The notes under the pieces were generated by a model, which did no database searches, was not told the origin of the DNA, and saw nothing but the letters and a program-made list of their open reading frames with translations. Below, piece by piece: positions 24,163 through 64,000 of a DNA stretch of 64,000 nt; position 1 is the stretch's first letter; each line of letters opens with the position of its first letter. Source of the DNA: Jaminaea rosea (taxonomy: Eukaryota; Basidiomycota; Exobasidiomycetes; Microstromatales); assembly GCF_003144245.1 (NCBI RefSeq), contig NW_020289978.1, positions 310,001-374,000 of the forward strand, written 5' to 3'. The translations under genes were made by a program, and so were the position numbers.

Positions 24163-25287
24163 ATGGGTAATGACGGAGGGTCTATCGCTCGTCGTGATGA
24201 GCTTGTCAAGGTCAAAGTAGGCAAGCCAGTTCAGGAGGCTGCCAGACAGAGGCGAGCGCGATGGTCTACTTGCGCTCTGTCCAAGAAGCCCCTCAAGCAG
24301 CCAGTCGTGGCGGATGGCTTGGGCAGGATGTACAACAAGGAGGCCCTTGTCAATTGGCTCATTCAAAGCAAGGTCAATGACGCCAAGGGAGTCAAGGATG
24401 AGGCAGGTGCGAATATGTCGCATGTTAGGAAGCTCAAGGTGAGTAGCCGCGACCAAACATGCGACAAGTGATGTAGTTCAGCCAGCTGATGCTTTAAACC
24501 CTGCCTGGGACAGGATGTCACCGAGCTCAAGCTGCACGATAATCCAGCGGCAAACATTCCCAAGAATGGACAAAACGGCAGCAATGGCCACCAAAACTCG
24601 GATGACGAGCAATTGCCCGCCCCCTTTGCCTGCCCGCTCACCGGTCGACCTATGAACGGCTCACACCGCTTCGTCTTCATTCGCGCGGCAGGGAGCGGCG
24701 CAGTGATGAGTGAGTCTGGTCTCAAGGCCGTGCTGGGCTCCTCCTCGTCTTCATCCTCATCGAACGCGTCGGCGAAGGCCACCTGCCCGATCACTTCTGC
24801 AACATTCGAGCCAGGGTACATCGCCCTCAAGGCTCCAGCTTCCTCTTCGTCAAGTAGTAGCGCCGTCGCTCCGCTCACAGCATCCAATGTCGCCGACGTG
24901 ATTCCACTGAACCCGGTACCGGAGGAGGAGGTGATATTGCGAGCGGTACTGCAAGCATCTACCGCGACGGGCAAAAAGGAGAAGAAGAATGGCAAGAGGA
25001 AGAACGGTGATGAGGCGGCAACGGGCGCGGAGGACCGCGAGGCCAAAGGCGAGAAGCGTCCTTCGCCTCCCTCAGCGACGATGGTTGACGAAGCTGCACG
25101 AGCAAAGAGAAAGCGCAAAGAGGTCGATGAGGAAGCGAGCCAGTCCCGACGCTCCGTTTCACCGCCTTCTGCGTCATCAGCCACAAAGGCGGCAGCAGCC
25201 TCGATTGCGGCTAGGGCGGCGAGGGAGGCGAGGGAACGGGAGAGACCGATGAGCGCCAATGTGCTGAAGGGCATTTACGGCAAGTAG
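24163..25287 (+). CDS. RTF2: Replication termination factor Rtf2
   Basis: Exons are 24163-24438 and 24514-25287, giving 349 residues. The start has a textbook context, CCACCATGG. The N-terminus MGNDGGSIARRDELVK is the hallmark opening of Rtf2 proteins. A RING-like half-zinc domain follows (WSTCALSKKPLKQPVVADGLGRMYNKEALVNWLI), and a second such half is in exon 2 (FACPLTGRPMNGSHRFVFI, then CPITSATFEPGYIALK). The C-terminal half is Lys/Ala-rich and disordered. Rtf2 stabilises paused replication forks in fission yeast, and its human relative is removed from stalled forks. It also links to splicing in some species. Nuclear location is inferred from the basic tail. Confidence 0.93.
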
Positions 25288-44889: not shown

Positions 44890-45806
44890 TCTTTTGAGTC
44901 GGCAGGCGAGCAAACAAGCAAGGCAGGAGAGAGGTGGCAGAAGAATGGAAGGATGAGGTAAAGAGATAAGGCTGGGTGTGGGTCGATGCTGCGAATGACC
45001 CCGCGTTGGCTGCCTTGCCCGGCTTTTCCGCGAGTACTTCTTCTCGTGGTGTCAGTTGACTCGCGGTCGCGTGGTCGTGCAGCTATGGGCTTGTCTCAGT
45101 GGAACAGCACAGCGCACCGCCTGCCTGCATCGACGTCGATGCCCGTCCAACACCCAGATTGAGCTAATGGCCAGCCATTGCTTGCCGTCGACTTCGCCGA
45201 GAGCGCCGAGTCAGCACATCAAGGGCGAGCGTATCGCTGTCGTCATCCGACTTGCCTACTCTGTACCTTGATATCTCTCGCTCGCTCGGTCCGAGGTTTG
45301 CTTCTCGGCGAAGCGAATGCTCCTATGGTCAGTCAGAGTCAGCTCGCCGCCCGCGCCCCCTTTCAAGCAAGCGAATGAAGGAAGTTCCACTCTCCACCGG
45401 CTCCCCCACGTCGGACAGAAGCGAATCTGGACTCTGCATGCAGGCGCCAGGTTGGGTGAGGGCGGTCAGACGAACGGCCAAAATGATGACACGCACAACT
45501 CACCTGCGATAGCACAAAGGCGACTCCAACGCAGAGATGCAGAGATACTCACTTGCTTCATATACCCATCTTTGAGACGAGGCGACGCTGGCGTTCCCTC
45601 CTTCACTTAACACCAGACGCCCTCCCTCCCTTCACTTCACTTCACTTCTCCTCGCACCCTCGCGTCCTTCACCTCGTCTTGCCCCTATCCTCGGCGCCAC
45701 TCTCGCCCACTTACCCCTCGGTGTCGGATCACCTTCTACTCGCCTTCATCACTATTCTCTCTCATCCTCTCACTGACTGCTCTGCTCTGCTTTGCCTCAC
45801 GTCATC
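44890..45806. promoter_or_regulatory. Divergent GNAT/S53-protease intergenic region
   Basis: This 917-base region lies between divergent start codons. The last 200 bases before the protease are strongly CT-rich and include a CTTCA-type pentamer array (about 45630-45648), as in leaders of highly expressed fungal genes. Several small frames occur but none shows motifs or codon bias that I trust. Confidence 0.45.
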
Positions 45807-47633
45807 ATGAGATTGCCACTCCTCGTCACGCTCCTTCCCCTGCTGCTGGCCTCACTCGCCCTTGCCGCACCTAGCAGCAGCCCATACGCTCCCTCATCCT
45901 TCATTCGCAAGGACAGCATCGCCATTCCCGCCGGCTGGGCCAAGCGCGCACCAGCCACGGGCAACGAAGTCGTCCACCTTCACCTCGGTCTCGCCAAGAG
46001 GGACCAACTTGGCCTCGAGGCTCGTCTTCAGCAGATCTCAGACCCTGACCACGCGGACTACGGCAAGTGGCTCTCCGCAGACGATGTCGCCGAGTACTTC
46101 TCGCCCTCCGCAGAGACGCGCAGCATCGTCTCGCGATGGCTGCAGGCTCATGGCGTCGAAGAGTCTCACGTTACCAAGCGCAGCGATATGGGCAACTCGA
46201 TCAGCTTCTCTGTCCCTCTAGCTCAGGCGCGCGCCATGCTCGGCGACGCCGACTTTGCCTACTTCCAGCACCGCGACTCGGGCGAAGAGCGCTTCACTGC
46301 CACGAGCTACTCCCTGCCCCGCGAAGTCGCTCCTCACATTGACGCCGTCTTTGGTCTTGCCAACTTCGCGCGCGGCGCTTCCTTCCGTGCCCCGTACAAG
46401 ATGGTCATGGATGATGACCTCGAGGTCGGCGAGAGCCGCTTGTCCTCCTTTGCAGCCGAGAATGGCCAGGCTAGCAGCGCTGCGCCCTCGTCCTGCCAGT
46501 TCAACCTGGTCACGGCGCAATGCCTGCGTGACCTCTACGGCACAGCGGACTACAAGCCCTCAGGCAAGGGCCAGTTCATCGGCATTAGCGGCTTCCTCGA
46601 AGAGTACGCCAACTACGATGACCTTGCTCAGTACGAGGCAGACCAGCGACCCGATGCCAAAGGCTACAAGTTCTCTGAAGTCTCCATCAATGGTGGCCTG
46701 AACGACCAGAGCAAGCCCGGAGGAGAGGCAAGCTTGGACGTCCAGACGGTCGCAGGTATTGCTTACCCTATCAACTCAACTTACTACTCGACTGCCGGTC
46801 GTCCTCCTTTCAAGGCCGACGCGTTCACCCCAACCAACACCAACGAGCCCTACGAGGACGAGCTGAACTATCTTATTGGCCTCAAGAAGCTGCCCTCCGT
46901 TCTCTCCACCTCGTATGGAGACGATGAGCAGACGGTCCCGCTCGAGTATGCCAAGCGCATCTGCTCAGATATTGCTGGATTGACGGCCCGTGGTGTCTCG
47001 ATGCTGTACGCCTCCGGTGACAACGGTGTCGGTGACACTGCTTCAGTGTGCAAGAGCAACGATGGTAAGAACACGACGATGTTCTTGCCGACTTTCCCTT
47101 CGACTTGCCCTTGGGTCACCTCGGTCGGCGCAACCATGCGCTTCGACCCTGAAGTCGTGACCACGAAGGAGGCATCATTCATCATCTCTGGCTCTGGCTT
47201 CTCCAACTACTTTCCTCGCCCCGACTACCAGAAGAAGGCCGTTGCAGGCTACCTTGCCAAGATCGGCAACAAGCACGCCAACCTGTACAACCACACCGGG
47301 CGTGCTTACCCCGATATCGCAGCTCAGGGATCGCGCTTCAAGATTGCGGTCAAGGGCAAATTCGGCGCCGTTTCTGGCACTTCAGCCTCTACGCCCCTCT
47401 TTGCTAGCATCGTTGCCCTCTTGAACGACGCGAGGTTCAAGGCGGGCAAGCCGCAGCTGGGCTTCTTGAACCCTCTAATCTATGGCCTGGAGGGCAAAGG
47501 TTTCAATGATATTACACAAGGATCTGCTACGGGCTGCGGTACAGACGGTTTCCCGGCTTTGGAGGGATGGGACCCTGCCGTTGGGTACGGGACTCCCCAA
47601 TTTGACACCCTCAAGAAGCTAGTCGGCGCGTGA
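45807..47633 (+). CDS. Secreted sedolisin (S53) serine-carboxyl peptidase
   Basis: A single exon encodes 608 residues. A signal peptide is plain (MRLPLLVTLLPLLLASLALA). A propeptide of about 200 residues of the Pro-kumamolisin type follows (LEARLQQISDPDHADYGKWL, then SADDVAEYF). The catalytic domain has the sedolisin triad: Glu307 and Asp311 in GGEASLDVQT and Ser526 in SGTSASTPLF. The oxyanion Asp is in LYASGDNGVG, and the calcium site near the end in FNDITQGSATGCGTDGF and GWDPAVGYGTP. Fungal S53 enzymes are tripeptidyl-peptidases or endoproteases active at acid pH and used for extracellular protein digestion. Which of the two activities this one has cannot be read from sequence. Confidence 0.95.
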   Translation: MRLPLLVTLLPLLLASLALAAPSSSPYAPSSFIRKDSIAIPAGWAKRAPATGNEVVHLHLGLAKRDQLGLEARLQQISDPDHADYGKWLSADDVAEYFSPSAETRSIVSRWLQAHGVEESHVTKRSDMGNSISFSVPLAQARAMLGDADFAYFQHRDSGEERFTATSYSLPREVAPHIDAVFGLANFARGASFRAPYKMVMDDDLEVGESRLSSFAAENGQASSAAPSSCQFNLVTAQCLRDLYGTADYKPSGKGQFIGISGFLEEYANYDDLAQYEADQRPDAKGYKFSEVSINGGLNDQSKPGGEASLDVQTVAGIAYPINSTYYSTAGRPPFKADAFTPTNTNEPYEDELNYLIGLKKLPSVLSTSYGDDEQTVPLEYAKRICSDIAGLTARGVSMLYASGDNGVGDTASVCKSNDGKNTTMFLPTFPSTCPWVTSVGATMRFDPEVVTTKEASFIISGSGFSNYFPRPDYQKKAVAGYLAKIGNKHANLYNHTGRAYPDIAAQGSRFKIAVKGKFGAVSGTSASTPLFASIVALLNDARFKAGKPQLGFLNPLIYGLEGKGFNDITQGSATGCGTDGFPALEGWDPAVGYGTPQFDTLKKLVGA

Positions 47634-50000: not shown

Positions 50001-53000
50001 TCAGTGGAAGCCAAAGAGGGCCGAACTGATGCCATGAGGCAGGAAGCCGTTGCCGCCGTTGCTACCGTTGGTGTCAACAGGCATGTACCCATGCCCAGGA
50101 GCGCCAAAGCCCGCCCCTCCCTGGTGAGCCTGCTGATTTGGATGTTGCCCGTGCCCCGCAGCCGCGTCTCCGCCACTCGCTGCATTGCTCGGCGTTTGCC
50201 CGCTCGCTGTTCCACCAGCGCCGAGCCCACCGACAAAGTCATCCAAGCTTGAGAGATCAAGTGGCAGAAGCGGGAAGACACTTTCGTCCGTACCGCCCAT
50301 GGTAGTGGTGGACAGGTCGGCAGAGAGGAGCTCCTCGAGCTGGAGGGCGGAGAAGTCCATCGTGGGTGGTGGACCGGTATGGCCTGACGAAGGGTTGAGG
50401 CCAGCCTGCTGAGCATGGTGTTGTTGAGCTTGGTGAGATTGAGGATGCGGAGGCGCGTGCGCTGATGATGATGAGATAGAGGGATGGGAGGGATGCTGGC
50501 CGTAGGACGACTGATGGTGGCCGGGAGTTGCGGCGTAGTGCTGCTGGTGCGCTCCGTGCTGGCCGTGCTGCTGCTGCTGGTAACCATCGAATGGCCCAGG
50601 TGTAGCAGCAGTCCACATCTTACCGTACGGTGTGCTTGCGCCATTCGACGCGGTGCCGTGACCTCCTCCGCCTCCCATGCCATTGCCATTCGCACCAGGT
50701 CCAGAGGAGGACTGCACGCGCTCTTGCTCCGCAGCCCACATATCGACCAGAGCGCGGATGTCAATCTCGACAGAGGTGGAAAGCTGGCCGGAGAGAGCGA
50801 GACCTAGAGGATTGTCACCGCTTGAGCCGGAGGCAGAGGCTGAGGCTGAGTCCAGAATACCCTCGTGCTGTTGATGATGCGCTGCTTGCGGATGCTGCTG
50901 CTGTTGCTGAGCGGCATTGGCGGCCGCAAGCAAGCTCGCAATACTTGTCGCCGCGCCAGGGCTGCCCATTGAGTTCCGCAGGCCACTCGTCACAGCAGTC
51001 AACGACGTCTCTCCAGCAGCAGCACCGCCCGCAGTACCGCCCGCCGCTCCCGCAAGAGTAGCCGCGCTCCCTCTCCTAGAGGCCATCCTGACTTTGGCTT
51101 GCTTAAGCTTATCCTTCGCCCATGCACTGAGGAGCTCCATGTCTCTCAGTGGTGCCTGCATTGCATCCTCATCATCCGCGTCCGGTATCACATCGCTGCC
51201 CGACGCGCCCGCCGCTTCCTGCTCGAGAGCCCTCGCAGGCCAGGAAGCGCCTGCCCAGTAGTGGCTCAAAGTGCGCAGCCAGACGGTGCATTTCGTCAGG
51301 TTGTCCGTAATCACCTTGCGGTGCCGCATCAAGTTGGTGATGCGATCACTCTGCCCTGACGAGGAAGCATCAGTGACCGCCGTTGTGGCAGCCGTCGTTC
51401 CCGTTGCAGTTGTCGTGCTACCACCGCCGGCCGTGCTCTCGCTATTGCTGGTGTGCAATTGCCTTGAAGGGCTGGACTGGCGTGATTGGCCGGGCATGTA
51501 TCCACACTGCTTCATCGCCTCGTTGATGCTTTCCCTCTCTGCAACGAACAGGCGGCCAGTAGGCAGGATGAGTTGATCAAGGTACGGCGACGAATGGAAG
51601 CTCTTCGGATCCACATGAGCAGCAAGGGCTACCATATCCACGATGGAGCGTGACGCTGAAGCCGAGATGTGGCCCGCAGCGCTCATGACCGTCGAACTGC
51701 TCTGTGGCGGGGCCGAGAAGTCGGTGTCCCTCGCCCTCATCATGCCGGGTCGCTCCAGTAGACTGATCGTAGACTGGAACAGGACGTGCAAATAAAGGAA
51801 GGCCGACCCTTGATTGTTGCTTGCTGCACGCTTGAAGCTCTGCACGCCAAATGCGCAGCTGGAGGGCAGGGACTGGAAGTAGGCGGCGCACTCCTGCCAG
51901 AGCTCGGTGAGGCGGACCTTCTTCTCGCTGAGGCGCATTCCGTCGTCGCGACGATTGAGGAGCTCACCCATCCTGCCACGACGGAGGAGAACTTGGATGA
52001 TCTGGCTCGCGAAGAAGGTGTCCGCCGTAGCCTCAACGACAGGAGGGCGACAGTCGATGGCGTGGTCGAGAAGAGTGACGGGCCGACCTGTGCCGAAACA
52101 GGTGATGCGATCGATGGCGTAGCATCCCGACCAGAACAGCCAGCGGGCCTTCTCCTGTTGTGCTTTGGTCGGCAGACTCTGAATTGTCGATTCGTGCTCG
52201 ATTCCCAGGTCCATGGCCATTCGCATGCCCATCCCCGAGTACATCCACAACCCTGAATCAGATCCGGCCCCGAATTCCGCATAGCTCAGGATGATCAATG
52301 CTTCAATAACGTCGAGGCTCGGCCAGGAGAGCATGGGCACAATGAGTGTCTTTGCCATCTCGCTGAAGCACTCGCCTACGCTTTTGGGAGGCTTGCGCTT
52401 GAGCTCAGCCCAGTCGGAGAAGCGGGCAGTCATCGCGCAGATGGAGTTGGCGAGGATTGAGGGCATTGTGCCGTCTTGAACGCTCTTGAGCAGCTCTTCT
52501 TCGATAATCCAGGGGCAGAGATGAGTGCGGAAGTACTTGACGAAAAGCTCCGACAGATGGAGGAGAATGTCCTTGCGTGGATAGCGTGGTCGCGAGGGGT
52601 CGAACAGGTCGCGAGATGTTGACGAGGCGACGGAGTCTTGCTCCATTCCGCCGAAAAGGTGACGAGACCCGTGCAGCCTAGGCGTCAAGGGGGTAACAGA
52701 GGTCGACGAGGGGTGGTCTGCAGGTGGCTGAGTAGGGCTGCCATTCGGTAGGGCTGTCTTGCCCGTGGCGTCGTCGTCGCTGGCTCGCTCAGCGGGAGCT
52801 CCAGACGCCTGTGTTGCACCATCGCCTCCTTCGCCATCTTCTTGCTCGGTGCCAGAGGGTGGCTTGTCGTCCTCATCTTGAGGCACATCTGGGTTGACGG
52901 CGACCTTGATCCTACGGTAGCCAGGCGTGTTGGCCGTGAGACCGAACCAGCGGAAGAAGGGAACAACGAGAGAGGGCTTTTTTGCCGCCGAGCTGCGACT

Positions 53001-54644
53001 GCCTTGAGAACCAGCTGTGTGAGCCTCGCCAGCGGATGGGTGATCGTCGGCAGGAGGCGAGTGGAAGGTTACTCGTTGCTGCTGCTGTTGATGCTGATGC
53101 TGCGAGGTCGAGTGAGAATGGCCTTGCTGTGATGCACCGTCTCTGCGCTCCTGATGTGAAGGGGCGCTCGGTAGCTCGCGATGCACACTGCCTGGCGAGT
53201 GCGGCAGCCTCGTCTTTGTGAGCGGAGAGAAGGGCCGTTCTGACCGAGTGTCTGAGGCCCCCGTCAGTGGTCGATCCCATTCGCTTGGATACCTCGAACG
53301 CCTCTCGCCGCTCGATGACGACTCGCTGCCTAAGCCAGGAAAGGCGGTACGGATTGGTGGCAAGGCTGATGGTGAGCCGGCTGCCGAAGGGGCGCGTGGT
53401 CGATGTAGCCGCTCCCTGTCGCGATCGCTCTCTCGAGGCGAGTAGGGTGACGGTCGGCCCGGCGGAGGGGTTGGGTATGGCAAGGCGGCCGAGTGTGGGG
53501 AGCCATACATGACAGGCGGCTGCGTGGAGTAGTAGGTCGGCACAGGCGGAGGAGGAGGTCTGGCTGAGCCTTGACTGTAGCCGTCATAGCCATGACCGTA
53601 TCCTGCGGGCGGTGGATGGTACATGTTGGGAGTGGCCGTCGGGTAGCCGACTTGGGCGGGATGGGGTGGGGGCGGATGAGGCAAAGCTGGTGTAGGAGTG
53701 GCGAAGTTTGTACGATGAGCCCCGAATCCGTAACCAGGTGGGTATGGCGCAGCATGATGAGGCGGCATCATAGGATGCGGCGGCGGCGGCGGCGAGGAAC
53801 TGCTTGAAGCTTGTGCTACCATGTGGGAAGGAGGCGCGCGCATCACAGGATCGACGACGATGGGTGCACCATGCTCAACTGCGGTGGGCGCCGGCGCAGC
53901 GGTCTTGACCGAATCCTTCCTCGACCTCTTCTTTGCGCTTTCCTCGCCCTCCTCTGGCTCCTCTCGCGAGTGCCCAGTCAAACTGCGGCGGTGGGCCGCT
54001 CCTCCACTCGTCGACTCCTTCCTGTGCGCCTTGGGCTTGCTCTTAATCTCTCTCGCATCAGCCCCCGGAGGCCCCAAATGACCAAATCGCTCAGCCCTAA
54101 AGTCCGGGCGCAGATCATCGATGCGGAAGAGGCATTCCTTGCCCGCCGAAGCGCAACGCTCGCAGATGGGCTGATCGGGCTTGAGGATACACTTGACCTT
54201 GTGAGCTCGGCAGGCTTCACAGGCGCTCACGGGCCTTGTACGCTTCCTGCGCTGTCCGGGTGGGGGAGAGCCGCTGCCCTCCGTCTTGGCGGAGGTTGGC
54301 GCGAGTGGGGGCGATTGAGAGCTTGAGGGCTCGTCGCCAGTCCTTGGACTCATAGCCGCGGCGCTGGCGTCCTTTGCTGCGCCGTTCGATGAGGAGATTG
54401 AAGCTTGCTGCGACATCAGAGAGGATGGCTGGGTATGCGAGGGATGTGGATCGGTGATGATGATGGATGTAGCGATAGAAGAAGAGTCAAAATGCTCGAG
54501 AGCAGCGCTGATCGATGGCGAGGTACCGCGCTGTTGCCAGAGCACAGCCGGATCAACCGTTTGTCCAGCCGGAATGCCTGAGCGGCGGATGAGGGCGAGA
54601 TCCGTCAGCTCATCTTCGACAACAGCCGAGCACTCGGGCTTCAT
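50001..54644 (-). CDS. Large Zn2Cys6 transcription factor
   Basis: A single exon encodes 1,547 residues from the ATG at 54644; the frame is open further upstream but without an ATG. Six cysteines of a binuclear zinc cluster lie at about 142-170 (ACEACRAHKVKC, then ICERCASAGKEC), preceded by basic residues. A long Pro/Ser/Tyr/His-rich disordered segment follows. The fungal-specific transcription factor middle homology region covers roughly 700-960 (FRTHLCPWIIEEELLKSV; GLWMYSGMGMRMAMDLGIEH; RWLFWSGCYAIDRITCFGTG). The C-terminal third is Ser/Ala/Gln/His-rich and could be an activation domain. Target genes are unknown. The factor is unusually long for the family (commonly 600-1,000 residues), almost entirely through low-complexity sequence. 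Confidence 0.92.
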   Translation of the reverse strand: MKPECSAVVEDELTDLALIRRSGIPAGQTVDPAVLWQQRGTSPSISAALEHFDSSSIATSIIITDPHPSHTQPSSLMSQQASISSSNGAAKDASAAAMSPRTGDEPSSSQSPPLAPTSAKTEGSGSPPPGQRRKRTRPVSACEACRAHKVKCILKPDQPICERCASAGKECLFRIDDLRPDFRAERFGHLGPPGADAREIKSKPKAHRKESTSGGAAHRRSLTGHSREEPEEGEESAKKRSRKDSVKTAAPAPTAVEHGAPIVVDPVMRAPPSHMVAQASSSSSPPPPPHPMMPPHHAAPYPPGYGFGAHRTNFATPTPALPHPPPPHPAQVGYPTATPNMYHPPPAGYGHGYDGYSQGSARPPPPPVPTYYSTQPPVMYGSPHSAALPYPTPPPGRPSPYSPRESDRDRERLHRPRAPSAAGSPSALPPIRTAFPGLGSESSSSGERRSRYPSEWDRPLTGASDTRSERPFSPLTKTRLPHSPGSVHRELPSAPSHQERRDGASQQGHSHSTSQHQHQQQQQRVTFHSPPADDHPSAGEAHTAGSQGSRSSAAKKPSLVVPFFRWFGLTANTPGYRRIKVAVNPDVPQDEDDKPPSGTEQEDGEGGDGATQASGAPAERASDDDATGKTALPNGSPTQPPADHPSSTSVTPLTPRLHGSRHLFGGMEQDSVASSTSRDLFDPSRPRYPRKDILLHLSELFVKYFRTHLCPWIIEEELLKSVQDGTMPSILANSICAMTARFSDWAELKRKPPKSVGECFSEMAKTLIVPMLSWPSLDVIEALIILSYAEFGAGSDSGLWMYSGMGMRMAMDLGIEHESTIQSLPTKAQQEKARWLFWSGCYAIDRITCFGTGRPVTLLDHAIDCRPPVVEATADTFFASQIIQVLLRRGRMGELLNRRDDGMRLSEKKVRLTELWQECAAYFQSLPSSCAFGVQSFKRAASNNQGSAFLYLHVLFQSTISLLERPGMMRARDTDFSAPPQSSSTVMSAAGHISASASRSIVDMVALAAHVDPKSFHSSPYLDQLILPTGRLFVAERESINEAMKQCGYMPGQSRQSSPSRQLHTSNSESTAGGGSTTTATGTTAATTAVTDASSSGQSDRITNLMRHRKVITDNLTKCTVWLRTLSHYWAGASWPARALEQEAAGASGSDVIPDADDEDAMQAPLRDMELLSAWAKDKLKQAKVRMASRRGSAATLAGAAGGTAGGAAAGETSLTAVTSGLRNSMGSPGAATSIASLLAAANAAQQQQQHPQAAHHQQHEGILDSASASASGSSGDNPLGLALSGQLSTSVEIDIRALVDMWAAEQERVQSSSGPGANGNGMGGGGGHGTASNGASTPYGKMWTAATPGPFDGYQQQQHGQHGAHQQHYAATPGHHQSSYGQHPSHPSISSSSAHAPPHPQSHQAQQHHAQQAGLNPSSGHTGPPPTMDFSALQLEELLSADLSTTTMGGTDESVFPLLPLDLSSLDDFVGGLGAGGTASGQTPSNAASGGDAAAGHGQHPNQQAHQGGAGFGAPGHGYMPVDTNGSNGGNGFLPHGISSALFGFH

Positions 54645-55912
54645 GGCGGCGGTGACACGACGGTACGGATGATCAGGAGTCGAGCCGTCGCGGTCGATGG
54701 ATCTTGTCCACCTTGACAGGATAGAAGGGTGTGGCAGCCATCTACGGCCACGTATCGTCGACTTTCGCCAGACGAAGCCATTCTCGACCCGTACCGTCCC
54801 GCAGTGTGCCGTCAGCACCGCCGTCGTGATCTCTCACTCACCTCGTGCGGATGTGCCAGGCAGAGGCGGTAGCAGCTGTCGGGAGCGATGTGACGTCCTG
54901 TCCTCTGGCGCTACGAAAGAGGCTTGGAGTCGCGGAGGAGGTGCGGGCGTTGCGCGCCGGACAATGTAGGCCGAGGAGATGATGAGCCTCTGACCGCTCC
55001 TTCGCTCGTCGACAGGAACAAGATGAAGATTGCAAAGCAATCACTTTGGTCCCGCCGATGATGGAAGGAGGTGTTCCGCCGCCGCCGTCTGAGCCGTGCC
55101 GTGATGAGCCGTGCCACGTCGCGCCTGCCGAGATGAGCTGGATGATGGATGACGGTGAGAGGGGCGAACGCAACTGCGCCTCGTCAATGGTCCGCCTTGC
55201 CCGTATGCTATCCTCGATGATGGAGAAGAAGGATCAGAGAGCAGATTGTAAGAATCAAAGCTCTTGCAAAACGCGAGCGGCAGTGAGCGAGATGGCGCAC
55301 GACCGACCGACCGACCCACGGCGGACTGAGCCGGACTGGCGGGTGGGCGGCAGACGAGATGCGCCTGCATTGATTTTGAGTCTTCCGACAAGAGGAGCGA
55401 GAGCAGGCAGCAGCATAGCAGGGCAGGACGAGTGTGTGAGGCAGGCAAGCAAGCAAGCGCATGAACACGAGAAGCATGAGAAGCAGCGGCGACCCCGCAC
55501 CTCCAACGACGATGACTGCCACCCACACGACGAGAACGCTGCCGCGATGAACATAGTGACACCGGCTGAATTCGAGAAGCAGATCGTTCCTGCTGATCAC
55601 CCGCGCACACATTGCTCTATAATGGCAGGCACAGCGGTGGTGATGCTGTGCTTGGTAAGAGAGACATATGGGAGCGCCTTCATCTTCGTCGTGGGATGAG
55701 AAAGCCGAGTGGTGGCGCTGCCTGGCGCAGCGGAGCAGCTTTAGCGTGGGGCCGCGTGGAAAGAAATCCCGATGTTGAACGGGAGAAAGAGCGCTTGAGC
55801 GTCATAGATCTAATTGAAGAAGCACAACTGAGAAATGAGACACTCATTCGCATTCAATGACGTGGGTTACTATGAGTGATCAATACCATTCTCTTGGCAC
55901 CCCAGCTTCTCA
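54645..55912. other. Long intergenic region, no gene found
   Basis: This 1.27-kb stretch lies between two minus-strand genes and is the longest gap in the window. It should include the Zn2Cys6 gene promoter and possibly a spliced leader. Both strands are open for about 190-217 codons around 55041-55699, but neither frame starts with a family-like sequence or shows a domain. About 55,790-55,870 is visibly more AT-rich than its surroundings. A CACGAC-rich stretch lies near 55300. I see no tRNA, repeat or element. Confidence 0.5.
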
Positions 55913-57580
55913 TCACGCCCCTGACACTGCCTCAACGCTTTCCTTCAGCGCCTGCACTGCCCGCCATACGTCTTCGAACGTCGAGTACTGAGCGAGGGGC
56001 GCCAACCTAAGTACATCTGGATTGCGGATGTCTGCAATGAGCCCAAAGTGCTCCTCTGCGTGCGCCTGCACCCGGGAGACGAGCGTGCCCTTGGCCGTCG
56101 GGCCAGCTACGGCGGGGGCTGCGGCGGGGGAGTCGTCCGTGTTGCCGTTGCTCTGGGATGAGCCGTTCGCCGCAGCGTTTGGGACCCTGATCGTCAACTG
56201 AGAGCCACGTTGCTCCGGGTCGTCCGGTGAGACAAGCTTGATGCCCACCTTCTCAAAAATGGCCTTGTTCTCCGGAACCTCGAAGAGAAGATGCTCCATA
56301 TAGCCTGTAAGCTTGAGCGACTTAGCCCTTAGCAGGGGCATGATGCTACCGTACCCAATTTTGTCCTGTCCTTCCCGCTCCTTCTGCCATGCCTCGCTCG
56401 CAAAGCCTCCTTGAGCATTGCCGGCGAGATCGAGACTAAGCGCCAAGGTCTCCAAGCTACCCCTCAACGCCGCAACATCCAGCGCGCTAGGGTTGCTCTG
56501 CTGCCAACCGGCCGCTCCACGCATCGGGTCGAACTCCTTGGGCATGGCAAATCGCGTCGCCTTGTTGTGGCCCCACCAACCCGCTGGCCTCTGCAGCGCC
56601 TTGTCATGCCACTTCTCATGAACGAACATGCCTCCAATGCCACCAGGGCCAGAAGAGCCGTACTTATACGTGCACCACGCCGCAAAGTCTACGCCCCAGT
56701 CATGCAGGGCAAGAGGTACATTGGCGAAGGCGTGGGCCAAGTCATAGGCGACGAAGATGCCTAGCTCATGAGCCTTTGCTGCTATCTTGCCCAGTTCGAA
56801 AGCCTGGCCGGTGAGGTATTGCACTGAGCCGAGTAAGATGCCCCAGCATTCTCCTGTTGCCGCTTCGCGCTCCATGGTCGAGAGGATGTCCTCTGTGCGG
56901 AGCGTGTCCTCGCCGGTGCGGGGGGAGAGCGGGACGAGCGTCTGCTCTGGGTCGAGATTGTTGAGCTGAGCGATGGAGGTGAGGGTGTACCCATCCGAGG
57001 GGAAGGGGCTGCGCTCGTGAATGATCTTGTGGCGCATTTTGCCATTAGCGCTGCCGCTGCTCCCTACGCCTTGTGGCACAGCCAGCGGACGATAGAAGGT
57101 AGCTAAGAGGGTGTGCAGATTCGACGTCAATGTGTTGTTCAGGGCCACCTCCGACGGCTTTGCCCCGACGATGTCGCTCATGATACGCTGTGGCGTCTGC
57201 TCCATCTGCGTCCATTGCCTATCTGACCCCTTTGGGTGGTTGAAGTGCCCCAAGACGGAATGCGTGGCCCAAGCATCGAGCTCTTCGCTCACGTACTGGT
57301 GCGTGCGCTTTGCCATTGGTCCCAGGGAATTGCCGCAGAGGTACAAGGCCGGTTTGGATGATGAAGGTTTCGGAGCGGCCTTGTCGGAGGGCCATGCTGA
57401 GTGAGCGGCAGCTTCGCGTAGGGGAAGGTGGTACTCCTGCCGCAGACGGGCGAGGGGGTCGTTGTCGTCGAGGAGGCGGGCGAAGCCCAGGGACGACGGC
57501 TCGAGGTACATGGATGCAGCCTCTTCTTTGATCTCGGCTGTGAGCCATGATGAGTCGGCGGAGCCGGTTTGGGAGGTCAT
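55913..57580 (-). CDS. BNA5: Kynureninase
   Basis: The PLP enzyme cleaves kynurenine and 3-hydroxykynurenine to anthranilate or 3-hydroxyanthranilate plus alanine, in tryptophan breakdown and de novo NAD synthesis. A single exon encodes 555 residues from the ATG at 57580. The N-terminal motif LYLCGNSLGPM (the family's GNSLG), GSDRQWTQMEQ, EVALNNTLTSNLH and the PLP lysine Lys306 in WCTYKYGSSGPGGIGG are all present. Next are WWGHNKATRFAMPKEFDPM and QQSNPSALDVAALRGSLE, both strongly conserved in the family. An Ala/Ser/Asn-rich insert near the C-terminus explains the extra length over yeast Bna5 (453). Cytosolic. It is divergent from the antiporter gene. Confidence 0.97.
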   Translation of the reverse strand: MTSQTGSADSSWLTAEIKEEAASMYLEPSSLGFARLLDDNDPLARLRQEYHLPLREAAAHSAWPSDKAAPKPSSSKPALYLCGNSLGPMAKRTHQYVSEELDAWATHSVLGHFNHPKGSDRQWTQMEQTPQRIMSDIVGAKPSEVALNNTLTSNLHTLLATFYRPLAVPQGVGSSGSANGKMRHKIIHERSPFPSDGYTLTSIAQLNNLDPEQTLVPLSPRTGEDTLRTEDILSTMEREAATGECWGILLGSVQYLTGQAFELGKIAAKAHELGIFVAYDLAHAFANVPLALHDWGVDFAAWCTYKYGSSGPGGIGGMFVHEKWHDKALQRPAGWWGHNKATRFAMPKEFDPMRGAAGWQQSNPSALDVAALRGSLETLALSLDLAGNAQGGFASEAWQKEREGQDKIGYGSIMPLLRAKSLKLTGYMEHLLFEVPENKAIFEKVGIKLVSPDDPEQRGSQLTIRVPNAAANGSSQSNGNTDDSPAAAPAVAGPTAKGTLVSRVQAHAEEHFGLIADIRNPDVLRLAPLAQYSTFEDVWRAVQALKESVEAVSGA

Positions 57581-57862
57581 GGCGGTCAATTCCGCAGACC
57601 AGAGGAGGTTAGGATTGAGGAGATGGGAAGAAAAGAAAGAGTCCGCCGCCAACTCAGACGCGTGGAGGCGGGGGCAAGACCGATCCCAAAAGTGGAGTCA
57701 AGTTGCCCTGGCGCCCTGGGAGGAAAAGGGGGTTCCAAATTGACGCTGCCCTTGTCTTCATTCATCGATCACCGCATTCAATCTAGAGTAGAGTAGAGTA
57801 GAAGTCGAACGGACCTCACATCTACATCGGCAATCCACGACCGCTCCCTTCAGTAGCCCGTC

Positions 57863-59626
57863 ATGGCCATTGAAGAGCTCGACGCCGTCGCCCTCTCCTT
57901 CGGTCTCTTTGCCTGCCTCTACGGCCTGTTCAGCTACCAAATCAAAGAGCGCCTCTATCTGTCCGAAGCACCCCTCGCCTTTCTCGTCGGCATCCTCATC
58001 GGACCCTATGGACTAGGGCAGCTCACAAAATGGGATGGAGAAGGAGAAGATGCAGCGTACGCAGACCAAATCTCCCTCGGTCTGAGCAGAATCGTCATTG
58101 GCATTCAGGTCGCTCTGGTGGGCGTCCAACTGCCAAAGTACTACCTCATTCATGAGCTGCGCAGTCTGTCCATCATGCTGATACCGGTCATGGCATGCAT
58201 GTGGCTCATCACCGCGGTGCTCATCACATGGGTCATCCCCGACGTGCCCTTGATCGTCGCGCTCGTCATAGCTGCCTCTGCGACACCTACGGACCCGGTG
58301 TTGAGCAACGCATTGGTAAAGGGAAGCTTTGCGGACCAGTACGTGCCTGCCAGGCTACGCAATGTCATCTCAGCCGAGTCGGGCTGTAACGATGGCTTGG
58401 CCTATCCCTTCCTTTTTCTGGCTATCCGCCTCCTCAAGGCGCCCACAACCTCGCAGGCACTCGGCAATTGGCTGCTGACTGATATAGTCTATACCGTCGT
58501 GGCGGGCGCAGCAATGGGTGTAGCTATCGGTTTGGCGGCCAACAGGGCTCTGCGTTTCTCCTGCCGACACGACTTCATCGACAAGGAGTCGTTCCTCCTC
58601 TTTGGCCCCATGCTCGGTCTCGCCTCCATCGGCCTCGCAGGCGCAATGGGACTCGACGATGTCCTCGTCTCCTTCGTGGCGGGCAATGCATTTACGTACG
58701 ACGACTGGTATCGAGTGGAGACGGAGGAAGACGAGGTGCAGAACGTCTTAGACTTCTTGCTCAACAGCATCTTCTTTGCATTCGCTGGAGCGGCCGTGCC
58801 CTTTGCTACATTCAATCTGCCCGACCTCGGGATCACACCTTGGAGGCTCATCGTACTAGCCGTTCTCGTCCTCCTACTTCGACGTCTCCCACCTATGCTC
58901 CTCTTCTACAAGGCCATTCCCGCACTCCGTGATGTCAGCGAGGCGGCCTTCGTTGGCTACTTTGGCCCCATTGGAGCCGGGGCGATCCTGTACGCTAGCA
59001 TCATCCTTCACGAGTTTCCCCTCGTGTCAGACGGCCTCGACCCAATGGGTCAGCGAGTACGTGAGCTCATCCGACCCATCACCTTCGTTCTCGTCCTCGC
59101 AAGTTTGCTGGGCCATACGCTTCTAGTGCCAGCGGTCAAGTTCTTCCTCGACGCCCGAGGAGCGCGAGGTGTACAATTGACGTCCACCATGGCGGAAGAT
59201 GAGAGGCACGAGGCCGCCAGCGCTGATGAAGGGGAGGACGACGATGAGGCTGCGGAAGAACATTACGAGTCGGGAATGAGCCCGCCGCCTGAGGATTCGC
59301 AAGGCCAGCGTCGTAGGGGTCCCGGTAGTGTGCGTGGTCGCTCATCCATGGTCGGTACTCCCGACGTGGAGATGGCCCAACCTGCTTCGAGTGTCCATCA
59401 CGCTACGCTCCGTGCTCGCTCTTCTTCGACTACCGCAGACGTCAATGCTGCCTACTGCAGGCGCCGAAGCACAGCAGATGGCTCATTGGAGCGAGGCAAT
59501 GGTGGAGTCGAAGGGGCATCGGCGCCGCATGTCGACGAATCATCGTGGCGCCACTCAAGTGGGCATAAGCTCGGACCCCATCGCGCGGTTGAGGCTCATG
59601 AGAGGGACAGAAGTAGGAGGGGCTAG
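57863..59626 (+). CDS. NHA1: Na+/H+ antiporter, Nha1/Sod2 type
   Basis: A single exon encodes 587 residues. The protein exports Na+ (and often K+) in exchange for H+ at the plasma membrane. About 12 hydrophobic helices occupy residues 8-430. Family signatures are FLVGILIGPYGLG near the N-terminus, ASATPTDPVLSNALVKG (with Asp144) and ISAESGCNDGLAYP (Asn176-Asp177), the ion-binding ND site of fungal CPA1 antiporters. The cytosolic tail, about 150 residues, is acidic then Ser/Arg-rich. That tail is far shorter than that of budding yeast Nha1 (total 985) and closer to fission yeast Sod2. A TAGAG pentamer array lies in its leader (57784-57802). Confidence 0.94.
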   Translation: MAIEELDAVALSFGLFACLYGLFSYQIKERLYLSEAPLAFLVGILIGPYGLGQLTKWDGEGEDAAYADQISLGLSRIVIGIQVALVGVQLPKYYLIHELRSLSIMLIPVMACMWLITAVLITWVIPDVPLIVALVIAASATPTDPVLSNALVKGSFADQYVPARLRNVISAESGCNDGLAYPFLFLAIRLLKAPTTSQALGNWLLTDIVYTVVAGAAMGVAIGLAANRALRFSCRHDFIDKESFLLFGPMLGLASIGLAGAMGLDDVLVSFVAGNAFTYDDWYRVETEEDEVQNVLDFLLNSIFFAFAGAAVPFATFNLPDLGITPWRLIVLAVLVLLLRRLPPMLLFYKAIPALRDVSEAAFVGYFGPIGAGAILYASIILHEFPLVSDGLDPMGQRVRELIRPITFVLVLASLLGHTLLVPAVKFFLDARGARGVQLTSTMAEDERHEAASADEGEDDDEAAEEHYESGMSPPPEDSQGQRRRGPGSVRGRSSMVGTPDVEMAQPASSVHHATLRARSSSTTADVNAAYCRRRSTADGSLERGNGGVEGASAPHVDESSWRHSSGHKLGPHRAVEAHERDRSRRG

Positions 59627-59865
59627 ATGGAAGGGACGGTCTGCGGTGAGGGCATGCTCGTGACTTGGCGCCGAGGATCGAGCAGAGGACGAAGTTGCAA
59701 GTAAGCAGAGAAAAGCAAGAGCAGGTCTTGCGTTGAGTTGGACGAAAGGGCCCGCCGGGCCTTTCTTGCTTGGACAGCGCAATGCAGAGGCAGAGCTAAG
59801 CAGGTCGGACGAGCAGAAGCACAGCACTTCACCTTCGCACTTGTCCCACTAGACTTGACCAACAA

Positions 59866-59913
59866 CACCATCATCACCATCATCACCATCATCACCATCA
59901 TCACCATCATCAC
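59866..59913. repeat. Nine-base tandem repeat (CACCATCAT)5
   Basis: Five perfect copies of CACCATCAT plus a final CAC fill 48 bases in the convergent intergenic gap. No protein is predicted across it. Confidence 0.9.
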
Positions 59914-59972
59914 GAGGACCTGCACTTGCAGAGAGATGATTGTATGGAAAGAGTTTCACAATTATAGGTTCT

Positions 59973-60000
59973 AGATGCGAGATGCGAGATGCGAGATGCG
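59973..60000. repeat. Seven-base tandem repeat (AGATGCG)4
   Basis: Four perfect copies of AGATGCG fill 28 bases, followed by a degenerate ATGATGCG. Such short arrays usually arise by replication slippage. Confidence 0.88.
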
Positions 60001-60332
60001 ATGATGCGTACTGAGAGACACTTTGGACAAACGGTGTGGGGGGCTACCAGCGCCTTTGCTGCTGTTGGTCTTGTGTTGCGTTCTGGTCTATGCTTTATGG
60101 CGGTACTGCAGGTGATGACGTTGAGCCTAGTGCACAACGTGACGCTGATGACGAGGCGGCCGCGTGCTGAGAATGGCGATCGCTGGACGTGAGTCAGCAC
60201 AACCATGTTGGAGTCACGATGCTTGTTGGTGTAGTCCTCCGCTGACGGCCTTGTCCGCTACTGTCTTGCTTCCCTAGCCAGTCCCATCCACCAATTATCC
60301 GCTTCGGCGCCGTCGCCTCTTTCTCTATCCAC

Positions 60333-63114
60333 TCAATCAAACCCATCCATCTCATCCCCATCCCTCTCATCCGACCCTGCAGCACCATTGCCATTCGCCC
60401 CACCAGACCCGCCACGCCCGCCACTACCATTCAGCGTCCTCTTGACGGCAACCCAGATTCGAGCACGCCTCACTGCCTGCTTGGTCTCGTCAGCCAGATC
60501 GCCCTCTCGGACACCGGAGCGCATCACCTCCGTCACCAAGTCGCGGAGCTCGGCCGCCGAGGCAGTATCGCCTGGCATGGATGTGGGGAAACGGCGAGCG
60601 AGACGCCCGTCGACGTTGGTGCCGTGTCCTGAGAGGACGAGTGCGTAGATGACTCTGTCCGCCGACGAGGTGCTCATCATTGGCGAGCCAGTGGAGTGGG
60701 GCGAGTCTGGGCGAGGTGGAGCCAGCGACGTCGACCAAGCCGCAGAGGCTGCGCTAGCGGCTAGAGATGCCCCGAGCTGGTAGCGCTGCTTCATATCCTG
60801 ATGCTGGATGCCGGTCGGGTTCGGAGCAGCCGTGTACACCACGCCAACCTCACCGAATGGAGTGTTGGTGATAGTCGTCCTCACGACCTTGGTGCGGTTG
60901 CCCAGCTCGCCACGAGCGTACATACCCGGGTCGAGTCCGCCCAGAGCACGCTTGGCACGTCTGACTGACCAGCCTCGCAGCGCTTCGTTGAAGGTGTGGT
61001 CGTCGACGCGGGCAGCACCAGGGGCAGCATTGTCCATACCAAGCATGTCTTGCAGGTGAAGCGATTGCGTTGCTTTGGAGAAATCGCCCGGAGTCAGGGA
61101 CATGAGTTTCGTCAGGGAGCCTGCGATGGAGCGGGAGCAAAGTGAGCGGCCATGAAGTTATCGTCAGCGTCAGCGTTACAGTCCAGCGTCAAGCTGCTCT
61201 CGCTCTGCACTCACGATGGAAGTGGAAGGTGCTCAGCCCTGCCTTGGCCGCGTAGTCCTTCAACGTCCTTTTCCTAGGCTCTCCGTCCCCCTCTGTAATG
61301 CAGTTCGTGGCCACGAGCATCATCTCTCGCACGCACTCCCTGACCGCGATGACAGTGCGATGCTGATGCTGATGCTCTCCACCACCGGCCGCAACACCAG
61401 CTGACCTGGCCATGCCCGTCAGTCCAAGCCCATCCATCGGGGAGCCCGAGACGGCGCTACCAGGGCCGTAGGCCATCTCAGGGCGGCAACGCTTGCAGCT
61501 CTTGAATCCCATCGCCTCAGCCTTGATCGCTGCGTCCGGCTGGGAGAAGAAGCGAATGCAGTCGGAGCGACTGCCTCTCGGATGCCCTTGGTTGAGGTAC
61601 TGAGGAGGTTGACGATGCTTCGTAGCGCTTGCGCTGGCGTGGCACGAAGGGCGGCAGTACGTTTGAGCGGACGTGGATGCGTACAAGAAGTGGCGATCTG
61701 CGTGCAGAGATCGGTTCATCACTGCTTGCCATTTAGCCTCGTCGTCTTGATATTGCCAACCCTGAGCTGCGACGCCGCCATTGGTTGAGGAAGGGGGCAG
61801 AGAGGTCATCATAGAAGGAGGAAAGGCGGTTATTGACCCTGGCTGCATCGAGTTCAGGGAGTCGTGACCACTCAACCAAGTCGAGTGCTGCTGGCCGCTT
61901 GCTCCGTTGAGTCCCAGTATGGTGCTGTTGCCATTGACATCGCTCTGGCCCGCTCCATCCCACATCAATGGCATGCTTCGATACGACGTCGAAGATTCAT
62001 AAAGGGGTGCTCCGGATGCACGAGAGGTGCCGTTGCCGCTCATGTGGACTGGCTGCATCATGCCATTGGTAAGGTCGTGGCTGCTTGAATGGCCCACAAA
62101 GGGAAGAGAGTGATACTGGCCGGAGTTGTTGGACGTCGAAGAGGCGGACGACCACGGTGAAAGCTGATTCTTTGCCACACCATCCTGGTGAGCGGCTCTC
62201 AGCGACATGTCCTGCATGTGTTGCTGCGGCGGCGGCTGCATCGTTCCATTCAGTGAGGCTAATGAAGACGTCGATGAGTCTGCGTAGTAACTAGGTTGGT
62301 TCGATGGCGGGCCCATGGCCGTTCGTGAATCCGGGAACAGGGTAGAGCCATGCCTGTATGCTGGTTGAGCGTGTGGCTGGTGCTGAGAAGTTGATGGCAG
62401 GGCACGGGCAATTCCATAAGACGAAGGAGAGTGCTGCTGCTGCTGCTGCTGGCCAAGAAGCGCCGTCGAGTGAAGGCTCGGCATCGCTGTCGACGACTGA
62501 GCGCCGTAAGTTGCGGATCCAGCGTTGCTTGGACGCGCACTGTTTGGTCGAGAAGACGATGCCGATGAGATAGGCAGGGGCGTATTGGTTGACATGCTGG
62601 GTGAAGGGTCGAATTGAGTCTGTCCTGGCGAGCCGTTGTGGAAAGAGAGTGATGTTGCTGCGGAGGCTGAGGGAGTCGTGTCGTGCTGGTCCTGCTGTTG
62701 GTGCTGAAGAGGTCGAAGAGGCGTAGACGAGACGGCTCCTCCTCCAATAGCAGTGATGCCAGCATTGGACGAAGATGTTGAGGACGAGCCCGCTGTGCTC
62801 TGCGGCGGCCAGAGCGATGAAGAGAAGAACCTCATGCTGTTGTTGTTACTGCTAGGCATTGTAGGCGTGGAGATGGCTGAGCTGCTGCCAGCGCCATCCT
62901 CTGCTTTCGGCGCCCAGCCGTAGCTTGGAATGGGCGATGTCATCGATGTCGCGGTAGAGGCAGCTCCCGTGCCAACACTGAGAGCTGAGCTGCCGGTCCC
63001 GTATGCTGAATGCGTAGACTGATGAGCTTGGTACGATTGATGAGAAGCCGCCTGCTGATGCTGCTGCTGGTCGTCTTGATGCTGATCCGCAGGGTGCCGT
63101 GAGAAGGGGTGCAT
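60333..63114 (-). CDS. Ada-like protein: Cys4 zinc domain plus AraC-type helix-turn-helix
   Basis: Two exons, 61215-63114 and 60333-61120, joined across a 94-base intron (GTGAGT...GCAG), give 895 residues. The start is the ATG at 63114 (G at -3); an ATG at 63162 is possible. Residues 1 to about 460 are Ser/Gln-rich and disordered. An Ada zinc domain follows: WQAVMNRSLHADRHFLYA, TYCRPSC and SCKRCRPE, with ligands Cys487, Cys491, Cys540 and Cys543; the gap between the pairs is about 22 residues longer than in E. coli Ada. An AraC-type helix-turn-helix (TLKDYAAKAGLSTFHFHR, then SLTKLMSLTPGDF) is split by the intron. Downstream, KVVRTTITNTPFGEVGVVYT resembles the start of Ada's methyltransferase module, but I see no PCHR active site. 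Probably a transcription factor; phosphotriester repair is possible. Confidence 0.82.
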
Positions 63115-64000
63115 TACGGCGCTGACGGAGGAGTGGTGATAGGGGATGCGAGCAAGACACATTCGTAAAGAGATGAGGAAGGCTAGGAACTTATCCAAAT
63201 GGTGGGCGAGAGATGGTCGCAAAGGGCTGAGGTATCGTCGGCCGTGTTGACCAGAGGACCTGAAGGAGGAAGGTGTAAAGTACCGAGATGGAGAAGAGAG
63301 GTGCGCTTGACGGCTCCTTGAGAGATTGACAGTCGACAAGAGGCGACGAGCTAGTCAGCTGCTGGGCCTGGAGCGAGAGCGTCTAGTGGTGCCGGCTTGT
63401 TTCCCGGTCTGGTCGAAAGTCCGGTACGCGTTGAGCCGTGAGGGAGCCGAAGGATGGAGGTGATGAAGCGAGTTATCGAGAGCGGAGGACGAATACGGAG
63501 CTGCTGGAGGTCCCAAGAAATGACCACACACGGCTCCTTGAGCGCTATACGACAGGAAACGGGGCACGATTAGTGACCCTGAATGCTCAACGCAGCGGGA
63601 GTAGGCGCGAGAGCTCGCGTACGACCCCAAAAAGGGCGAGTACGTACTGAAGGACAAATATGTACCAAGGGCAGGAACGAGAAGGGAGAGGCGCGCCCGC
63701 TTTCCGTGGGAAGAAACCAAGGGGGCCTGGGGAGCAAGAGATGGGATTGAAATGGGCCGGTGCCGCTGGGTCGAGCGGAACAGCTACTCGATGTCGACCG
63801 ACTTGAGTCGGATGAGACGGGGAGGAGTTCGGGTCGGGCAGCTCCGTGCAGGCTGCGAGATGGACACCTTCGCCTCAAGGCAAACAGGGCAGAGAGATGA
63901 GGGTGAGTGGGCGGAAGACAAGACTTGCCGAACAGGGTCCGGTAATTGTCTGTGTTTAGGAGGAGTCTGAACGGGGAGCCCGAAGATTGAATCGACTAAG
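63115..64000. other. Upstream region of the Ada-like gene, no gene found
   Basis: The last 886 bases are upstream of the Ada-like gene and should include its promoter. The gene's frame stays open to 63339 without an ATG, so a short non-coding or coding 5' exon is possible. One ACGCGT lies near 63426. Small overlapping frames on both strands to the window end have no recognisable motif. Confidence 0.45.

Follow-up and report, generated by a model that had tools for sequence, protein, structure and literature searches.

A gene on the minus strand of the 64,000-nucleotide stretch of Jaminaea rosea DNA analysed here (the window), at positions 60333-63114, encodes a spliced Ada-type protein of 895 residues. 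The protein carries an Ada zinc-binding domain with all four zinc-ligand cysteines and an AraC-type helix-turn-helix (HTH) that is restored by a splice, and it lacks the catalytic end of the Ada methyltransferase. It is probably a transcription regulator, and on balance we lean towards an Ada-family regulator of the SaraC kind that has kept methyl sensing at least in part. If read correctly, this would be a transcription factor of a eukaryote that carries a bacterial-type sensor of chemical damage, and it would allow a test of whether the methyl switch still works once the repair half is lost.

Exon 1 covers 63114-61215 and exon 2 covers 61120-60333, including the stop codon. They are separated by a 94-bp phase-1 intron (61121-61214, (-), GTGAGT...TCGCAG), which interrupts the first HTH. 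To evaluate the splice, the GT-AG pairs of this region giving an intron of 40-250 nt and leaving more than 60 residues were taken together with the unspliced frame, in total 18 isoforms, and scored with a profile of the first HTH in bacterial Ada. Our splice obtains 32.0 bits, the highest score of the set, compared with 18.5 bits for the runner-up, which is the unspliced frame. This splice (61214-61121) is the only one among the 18 isoforms that restores the first AraC HTH, and the intron is well supported. The coordinates, the reading frames, the length and the intron inside the HTH had all been given in the first-pass annotation of this DNA and agree with our gene model. The start codon is uncertain, as an in-frame ATG at 63162 would lengthen the protein by 16 residues.

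The gene is convergent with a Na+/H+ exchanger gene (+), and the two are separated by short tandem arrays (ACCATCATC, AGATGCG) at 59858-60008. The exchanger gene and a kynureninase-like gene (-) occupy 55913-59626, between the Ada-type gene and a 1605-residue open frame at 50001-54818 (-), a Zn2Cys6 factor whose Zn_clus and Fungal_trans domains mark this DNA as fungal. Further away, an open frame at 45792-47633 (+) contains a pro-kumamolisin activation domain and a match to S8-family peptidases.

That the protein belongs to the Ada zinc-domain family is almost certain. The N-Ada domain covers approximately residues 459-547 (61474-61740, (-)) and matches Ada_Zn_binding (PF02805) in two stretches with an E-value of 5.2e-13 and 49.2 bits, the Pfam cut-off being 23. 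In a PDB sequence search the zinc part matches the E. coli N-Ada structure 1wpk at 2.8e-10. For a comparison part by part, profiles were built from 34 full-length bacterial Ada proteins, and the score of each part was compared with those of 2000 shuffled versions of its residues, where shuffles without a HMMER score were counted as lower. The zinc profile gives 70.5 bits, equalled by none of the 2000 shuffles, and with the Pfam and 1wpk matches this excludes a chance match. The four ligands are found in the spacing C-x3-C and C-x2-C (Cys487, 491, 540 and 543). The first-pass annotation had recognised a Cys4 site of the Ada N-terminal type with TYCRPSC and CKRC and with its first Cys kept; both observations hold, and Cys487 falls in a conserved column.

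To describe the surroundings of the acceptor, we used a bacterial set of 61 distinct open frames, obtained from the 75 of 131 loci that fit a motif in which the gap from one Cys pair to the other was limited to 22-34 residues. The 55 of these 61 frames that are longer than 150 residues were used for conservation and for the tree, and a column was called conserved when at least 80% of the 55 sequences have the same residue. The Jaminaea protein keeps 19 of the 29 conserved zinc-domain columns, including the four Cys, CRPxC and CKRC. The other ten are changed: D13S, G18R, V24S, T27A, G28Q, I29T, N44C, V45I, A57M and R60K, numbered by alignment column and with the consensus residue first. Columns T27-I29 directly precede the acceptor Cys, where the bacterial TTGI reads SAQT; N44 and V45 are close to an insertion and are aligned with less certainty. 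A single-sequence AlphaFold2 model of the zinc/HTH part of exon 1 was uninformative (mean pLDDT 39).

This insertion adds 22 residues between the two Cys pairs, at approximately 61567-61635 (-), the exact place depending on the alignment. The pairs are 48 residues apart, compared with 25 (one), 26 (52) or 27 (four) residues in 57 distinct bacterial matches when 10-90 residues were allowed; these matches come from 75 of the 131 loci, and the other 56 loci do not have the motif and were not counted. The 22-residue expansion noted in the first pass is therefore real. A gap of about 26 residues is a usual trait of the family and not a strict definition of PF02805.

An unspliced intron is an unlikely source of the additional residues. 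In-frame removals of 36-150 nt were scored, and a spacing of 26 would need the removal of 66 nt. Among the 12 best removals listed, eight exceed the 70.0 bits of the unspliced frame, the best with 81.1 bits. Seven of these eight rely on non-consensus GC donors, and the last is a 39-nt intron with the donor GTCAAC. There is no consensus in-frame intron among the candidates, and none removes the required 66 nt.

The first AraC-type HTH is located at approximately residues 617-660 (61041-61266, (-)), split by the intron. It obtains 32.1 bits with the bacterial Ada HTH1 profile at the collinear place, a score reached by none of 2000 shuffles, so that chance is excluded. The motif STFHFHR agrees with SPFHLHR of E. 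coli at five of seven positions (S, F, H, H, R); five of the ten conserved HTH1 columns are kept, and the other five are unmatched, two of them being gaps in the alignment. The AraC-like HTH aligned by eye with E. coli Ada in the first pass is thus confirmed, though in Pfam it stays below the cut-offs. HTH_AraC (PF00165) reaches 16.3 bits in the whole protein and 18.4 with the domain alone (cut-off 26.6), and HTH_18 (PF12833) 14.3 bits with the domain alone (cut-off 33.6). Of the profile searches proposed at that stage, Ada_Zn_binding gave a clear match (5.2e-13), HTH_18 did not reach its cut-off (14.3 vs 33.6 bits), and no methyltransferase was matched. Behind the first HTH, at approximately residues 676-706 (60903-60995, (-)), a degenerate HTH-like stretch is collinear in the alignment with the second HTH of Ada, but the match is weak (3.3 bits; 39 of 2000 shuffles score as high).

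The methyltransferase active site and the catalytic subdomain are absent from the protein according to Pfam, the Ada profiles and NCBIfam. The catalytic-half profile scores -0.5 bits on the Ada-type protein, as do 279 of 2000 shuffles or higher. All six frames of the window are free of PCHR, and of its 1923 open frames with 15 or more residues none gives a credible match to the catalytic half; in the first-pass annotation, too, no PCHR acceptor region was visible. A hidden PCHR exon in the window was also considered and rejected, as there is no PCHR and the best catalytic-half match, at E=0.16, is to an unrelated frame (53774-53905). Because the PCHR catalytic subdomain is gone, Ada-style repair of O6-methylguanine is impossible for this protein. 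NCBIfam yields a single match with E no higher than 1, to the Ada equivalog NF011964, at 55.8 bits and thus far below the cut-off of 345.

For the tail of the protein the evidence is suggestive: approximately residues 710-835 (60516-60893, (-)), with an inserted stretch of about 57 residues, may be what is left of the N-half of the methyltransferase module. A combined tail profile, from the second HTH to the methyltransferase N-half and built from the same 34 Ada proteins, gives 8.1 bits, which is reached by one in 10000 shuffles, and the tail outscores 194 overlapping control chunks from open frames of the window, the next chunk obtaining 3.2. The N-half profile gives 5.7 bits (one of 2000 shuffles as high). 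When the tail is divided, its parts are weaker: 50 of 10000 shuffles are as high as the linker part (6.0 bits), which also falls behind four of the control chunks, and the second part obtains 6.3 bits (21 of 10000 shuffles) and narrowly beats the top control chunk (3.6 vs 3.5). In a blind scan of the same 1923 open frames, the gene ranks first with the combined tail profile, at E=0.62, and fourth with the N-half profile alone, at E=3.5.

Pfam finds no methyltransferase in the C-terminal 194 residues, none of the 14 PDB sequence matches is an Ada or methyltransferase chain, and hhalign against bacterial Ada gives a probability below 1% with E 0.07-0.11 for a single comparison, which is not significant. 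AlphaFold2 with 12 bacterial rows models the exon-2 tail with a mean pLDDT of 59, the best blocks reaching 75-85, around a strand-strand-strand-helix-helix core. With this model Foldseek returned 164 matches with E up to 10, the best at 1.3 and none at or below 0.001, and there is no Ada or alkyltransferase among the 50 matches listed of the 164. The model is weak evidence either way, because the input alignment itself biases it toward Ada. The placement of VVRTTITNTPFGEVG by MAFFT is ambiguous: default and local modes align it with the second HTH, global mode and shorter fragments with the methyltransferase N-half. The RNase H-like half of the second Ada module, to which the first pass had noted a resemblance in this segment, is favoured by the shuffles (1/10000) but not by the blind scan (E=0.62), Pfam or the fold comparison, where no significant match was obtained.

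Residues 1-455 (61750-63114, (-)) form a low-complexity region rich in S, A, Q, P and G, with 75% S/T/N/Q/G/P/A/H, 6.6% charged residues and no match in the Pfam search of the whole protein. The region had been called disordered; the low complexity is evident, and the disorder is read from the composition. It is a possible activation region.

Over the zinc domain and the first HTH, the Jaminaea protein is most similar to full-length Ada, with a best identity of 46% and a median of 38% (n=35). The median is 31% both for short zinc and AraC proteins without a methyltransferase (n=5) and for long open frames without PCHR (n=15). This pattern would agree with descent from a fused Ada, short of proof. 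The best of the five short frames, L014 with 41%, is an enterobacterial Ada-like frame that ends early. It is located at 2501-2908 in Kluyvera genomosp. 3 strain YDC799 and stops after 197 residues with no in-frame PCHR, perhaps because of a frameshift, or perhaps as a genuine truncation. A phylogeny of fungal and bacterial Ada domains had been proposed as a check. In the tree of the zinc and HTH1 parts, which contains bacterial sequences only, the protein from the window is placed beside a full-length Ada (L009), but with a support of 0.54 this is too weak for naming a donor. The searches for relatives yielded no fungal sequence, and none of the nine candidate stretches from viral contigs is a relative.

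In E. coli Ada, the methyl group of a DNA methylphosphotriester is transferred to the first zinc cysteine, which switches on promoter binding. By analogy, Cys487 would accept the methyl group from a methylphosphotriester, and the protein would then bind alkylation-response promoters. The zinc-bound Cys4 domain and the AraC-type HTH would bind DNA jointly in the nucleus, and the long N-terminal region, rich in S and Q, probably serves to bring in the transcription machinery. Methyl sensing is a plausible, if unproven, part of this model. The regulator reading is based on the significant zinc and HTH1 parts, the 19 of 29 columns kept, the STFHFHR motif, the splice that restores the HTH, the S/Q-rich N-terminus and the precedent of SaraC, as described in the available text of PMC9769804. 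Against this reading we count the ten of 29 zinc columns that are changed, among them T, G and I of TTGI, the 22 additional residues and the degenerate second HTH, as well as the sub-cut-off HTH_AraC match, the five of ten unmatched HTH1 columns, the lack of a nearby operator and of a fungal relative. For the operator we searched the E. coli Ada pattern AATN6GCAA; its only exact occurrence in the 64-kb window is at 24541, and there is none near the gene. The first-pass proposal of a bacterial-origin sensor reused as a eukaryotic transcription factor is partly supported, by the zinc site, the HTH and the missing active site; the acceptor Cys487 is kept, but with SAQT in place of TTGI just before it.

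Alternatively, the protein could be a factor that is constitutive or gated in another way, in which the Cys4 site would be a structural zinc module aiding DNA binding and sensing would have been lost together with the methyltransferase. The change of TTGI to SAQT beside the acceptor, the 22 additional residues between the Cys pairs and the absent catalytic end are all in line with this. However, the four Cys, CRPxC and CKRC are all kept, and a purely structural site would not need to retain the CRPSC motif on the acceptor side; we regard this explanation as rather unlikely. The gene could also be decaying, its catalytic end lost, its second HTH eroding and its insertions the result of drift. 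The degenerate second HTH, the weak tail and several long low-complexity stretches would fit, but open frames and a consensus splice site are maintained across 895 residues and the zinc and HTH1 parts match strongly; of all explanations, we find this one the most improbable.

Nor does it seem at all likely that the protein is mainly a global regulator of secondary metabolism linked to DNA demethylation, rather than to the alkylation response. For SaraC, the part of PMC9769804 available to us reports that it binds and demethylates 5mC and 6mA oligonucleotides, with very low product, and that secondary-metabolism genes are activated when it is overexpressed. Around the Jaminaea gene, none of the five neighbouring open frames scanned encodes a secondary-metabolism enzyme. 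A Cys4 zinc site is also not known to remove the methyl directly from 5mC or 6mA. Returning to the Ada-family regulator with partial methyl sensing, a more specific history can be proposed for it, which we consider doubtful. A fused bacterial-type Ada may have lost only its catalytic subdomain in the fungus and kept the N-half, with a long activation region, as a platform for regulation; the former alkylation sensor would then be a switch of transcription only, the surroundings of its acceptor being altered.

A fungal regulator of the Ada/AraC type is not new, because such regulators or domains are described in the accessible text of four papers (PMC9769804, PMC5415576, PMC10056406, PMC5470089). 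The basidiomycete SaraC is reported to bind DNA and, on overexpression, to alter transcription; its authors name it a hypothetical bifunctional regulator/methyltransferase, and in the available text no methyltransferase domain is listed (PMC9769804). The same text divides 27 chosen sequences into basidiomycete, ascomycete and bacterial clades and calls such regulators ubiquitous in fungi. The AraC-type HTH is included in a table of DNA-binding domains typical of fungi (PMC5415576), a single HTH_AraC copy is given for most genomes of the Fusarium oxysporum complex (PMC10056406), and in Ascochyta rabiei AraC-type factors are called abundant (PMC5470089), in each case in the part of the paper available. 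The architectural novelty claimed in the first pass was therefore overstated (PMC9769804). In the literature searched, whose coverage leaves out most subscription journals and some of which was available in part, we found no published account of the insertion or of the methyltransferase remnant. With fungal Ada/AraC-type regulators and one functional study already published, what this analysis adds is a gene model backed by its splice, the extra residues that separate the two Cys pairs and what may be a remnant of the methyltransferase.

Compared with E. coli Ada (PDB 1wpk, 1u8b, 1zgw; NF011964), the Jaminaea protein has in common the zinc domain, the acceptor-type Cys, the first HTH and the collinear order, and possibly the start of the methyltransferase module. 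It differs by the missing PCHR subdomain, the 22 additional zinc-domain residues, the degenerate second HTH and an N-terminal extension of 455 residues. The AdaA family, methyl acceptors with a zinc domain and an AraC HTH but no methyltransferase, is represented presumably by the short bacterial frames L042, L044, L061 and L029. They share with the Jaminaea protein the zinc domain and the AraC HTH in the same chain without a methyltransferase. However, over the zinc and HTH1 parts the protein is nearer to full-length Ada (46%) than to these frames (best 33%), with a tree support of 0.54, and it has a possible methyltransferase remnant and the fungal additions. The closest parallel in kind is SaraC of Stereum hirsutum (XP_007299133.1; PMC9769804), likewise a fungal Ada-type regulator and treated as a regulator of transcription in the available text. 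SaraC is smaller, its tagged form being predicted there at 54.9 kDa (PMC9769804), compared with the 895 residues found here. The Jaminaea protein fits the SaraC-like pattern of Ada_Zn_binding together with an AraC-type HTH, the HTH being recognised by the shuffles and below the Pfam cut-off.
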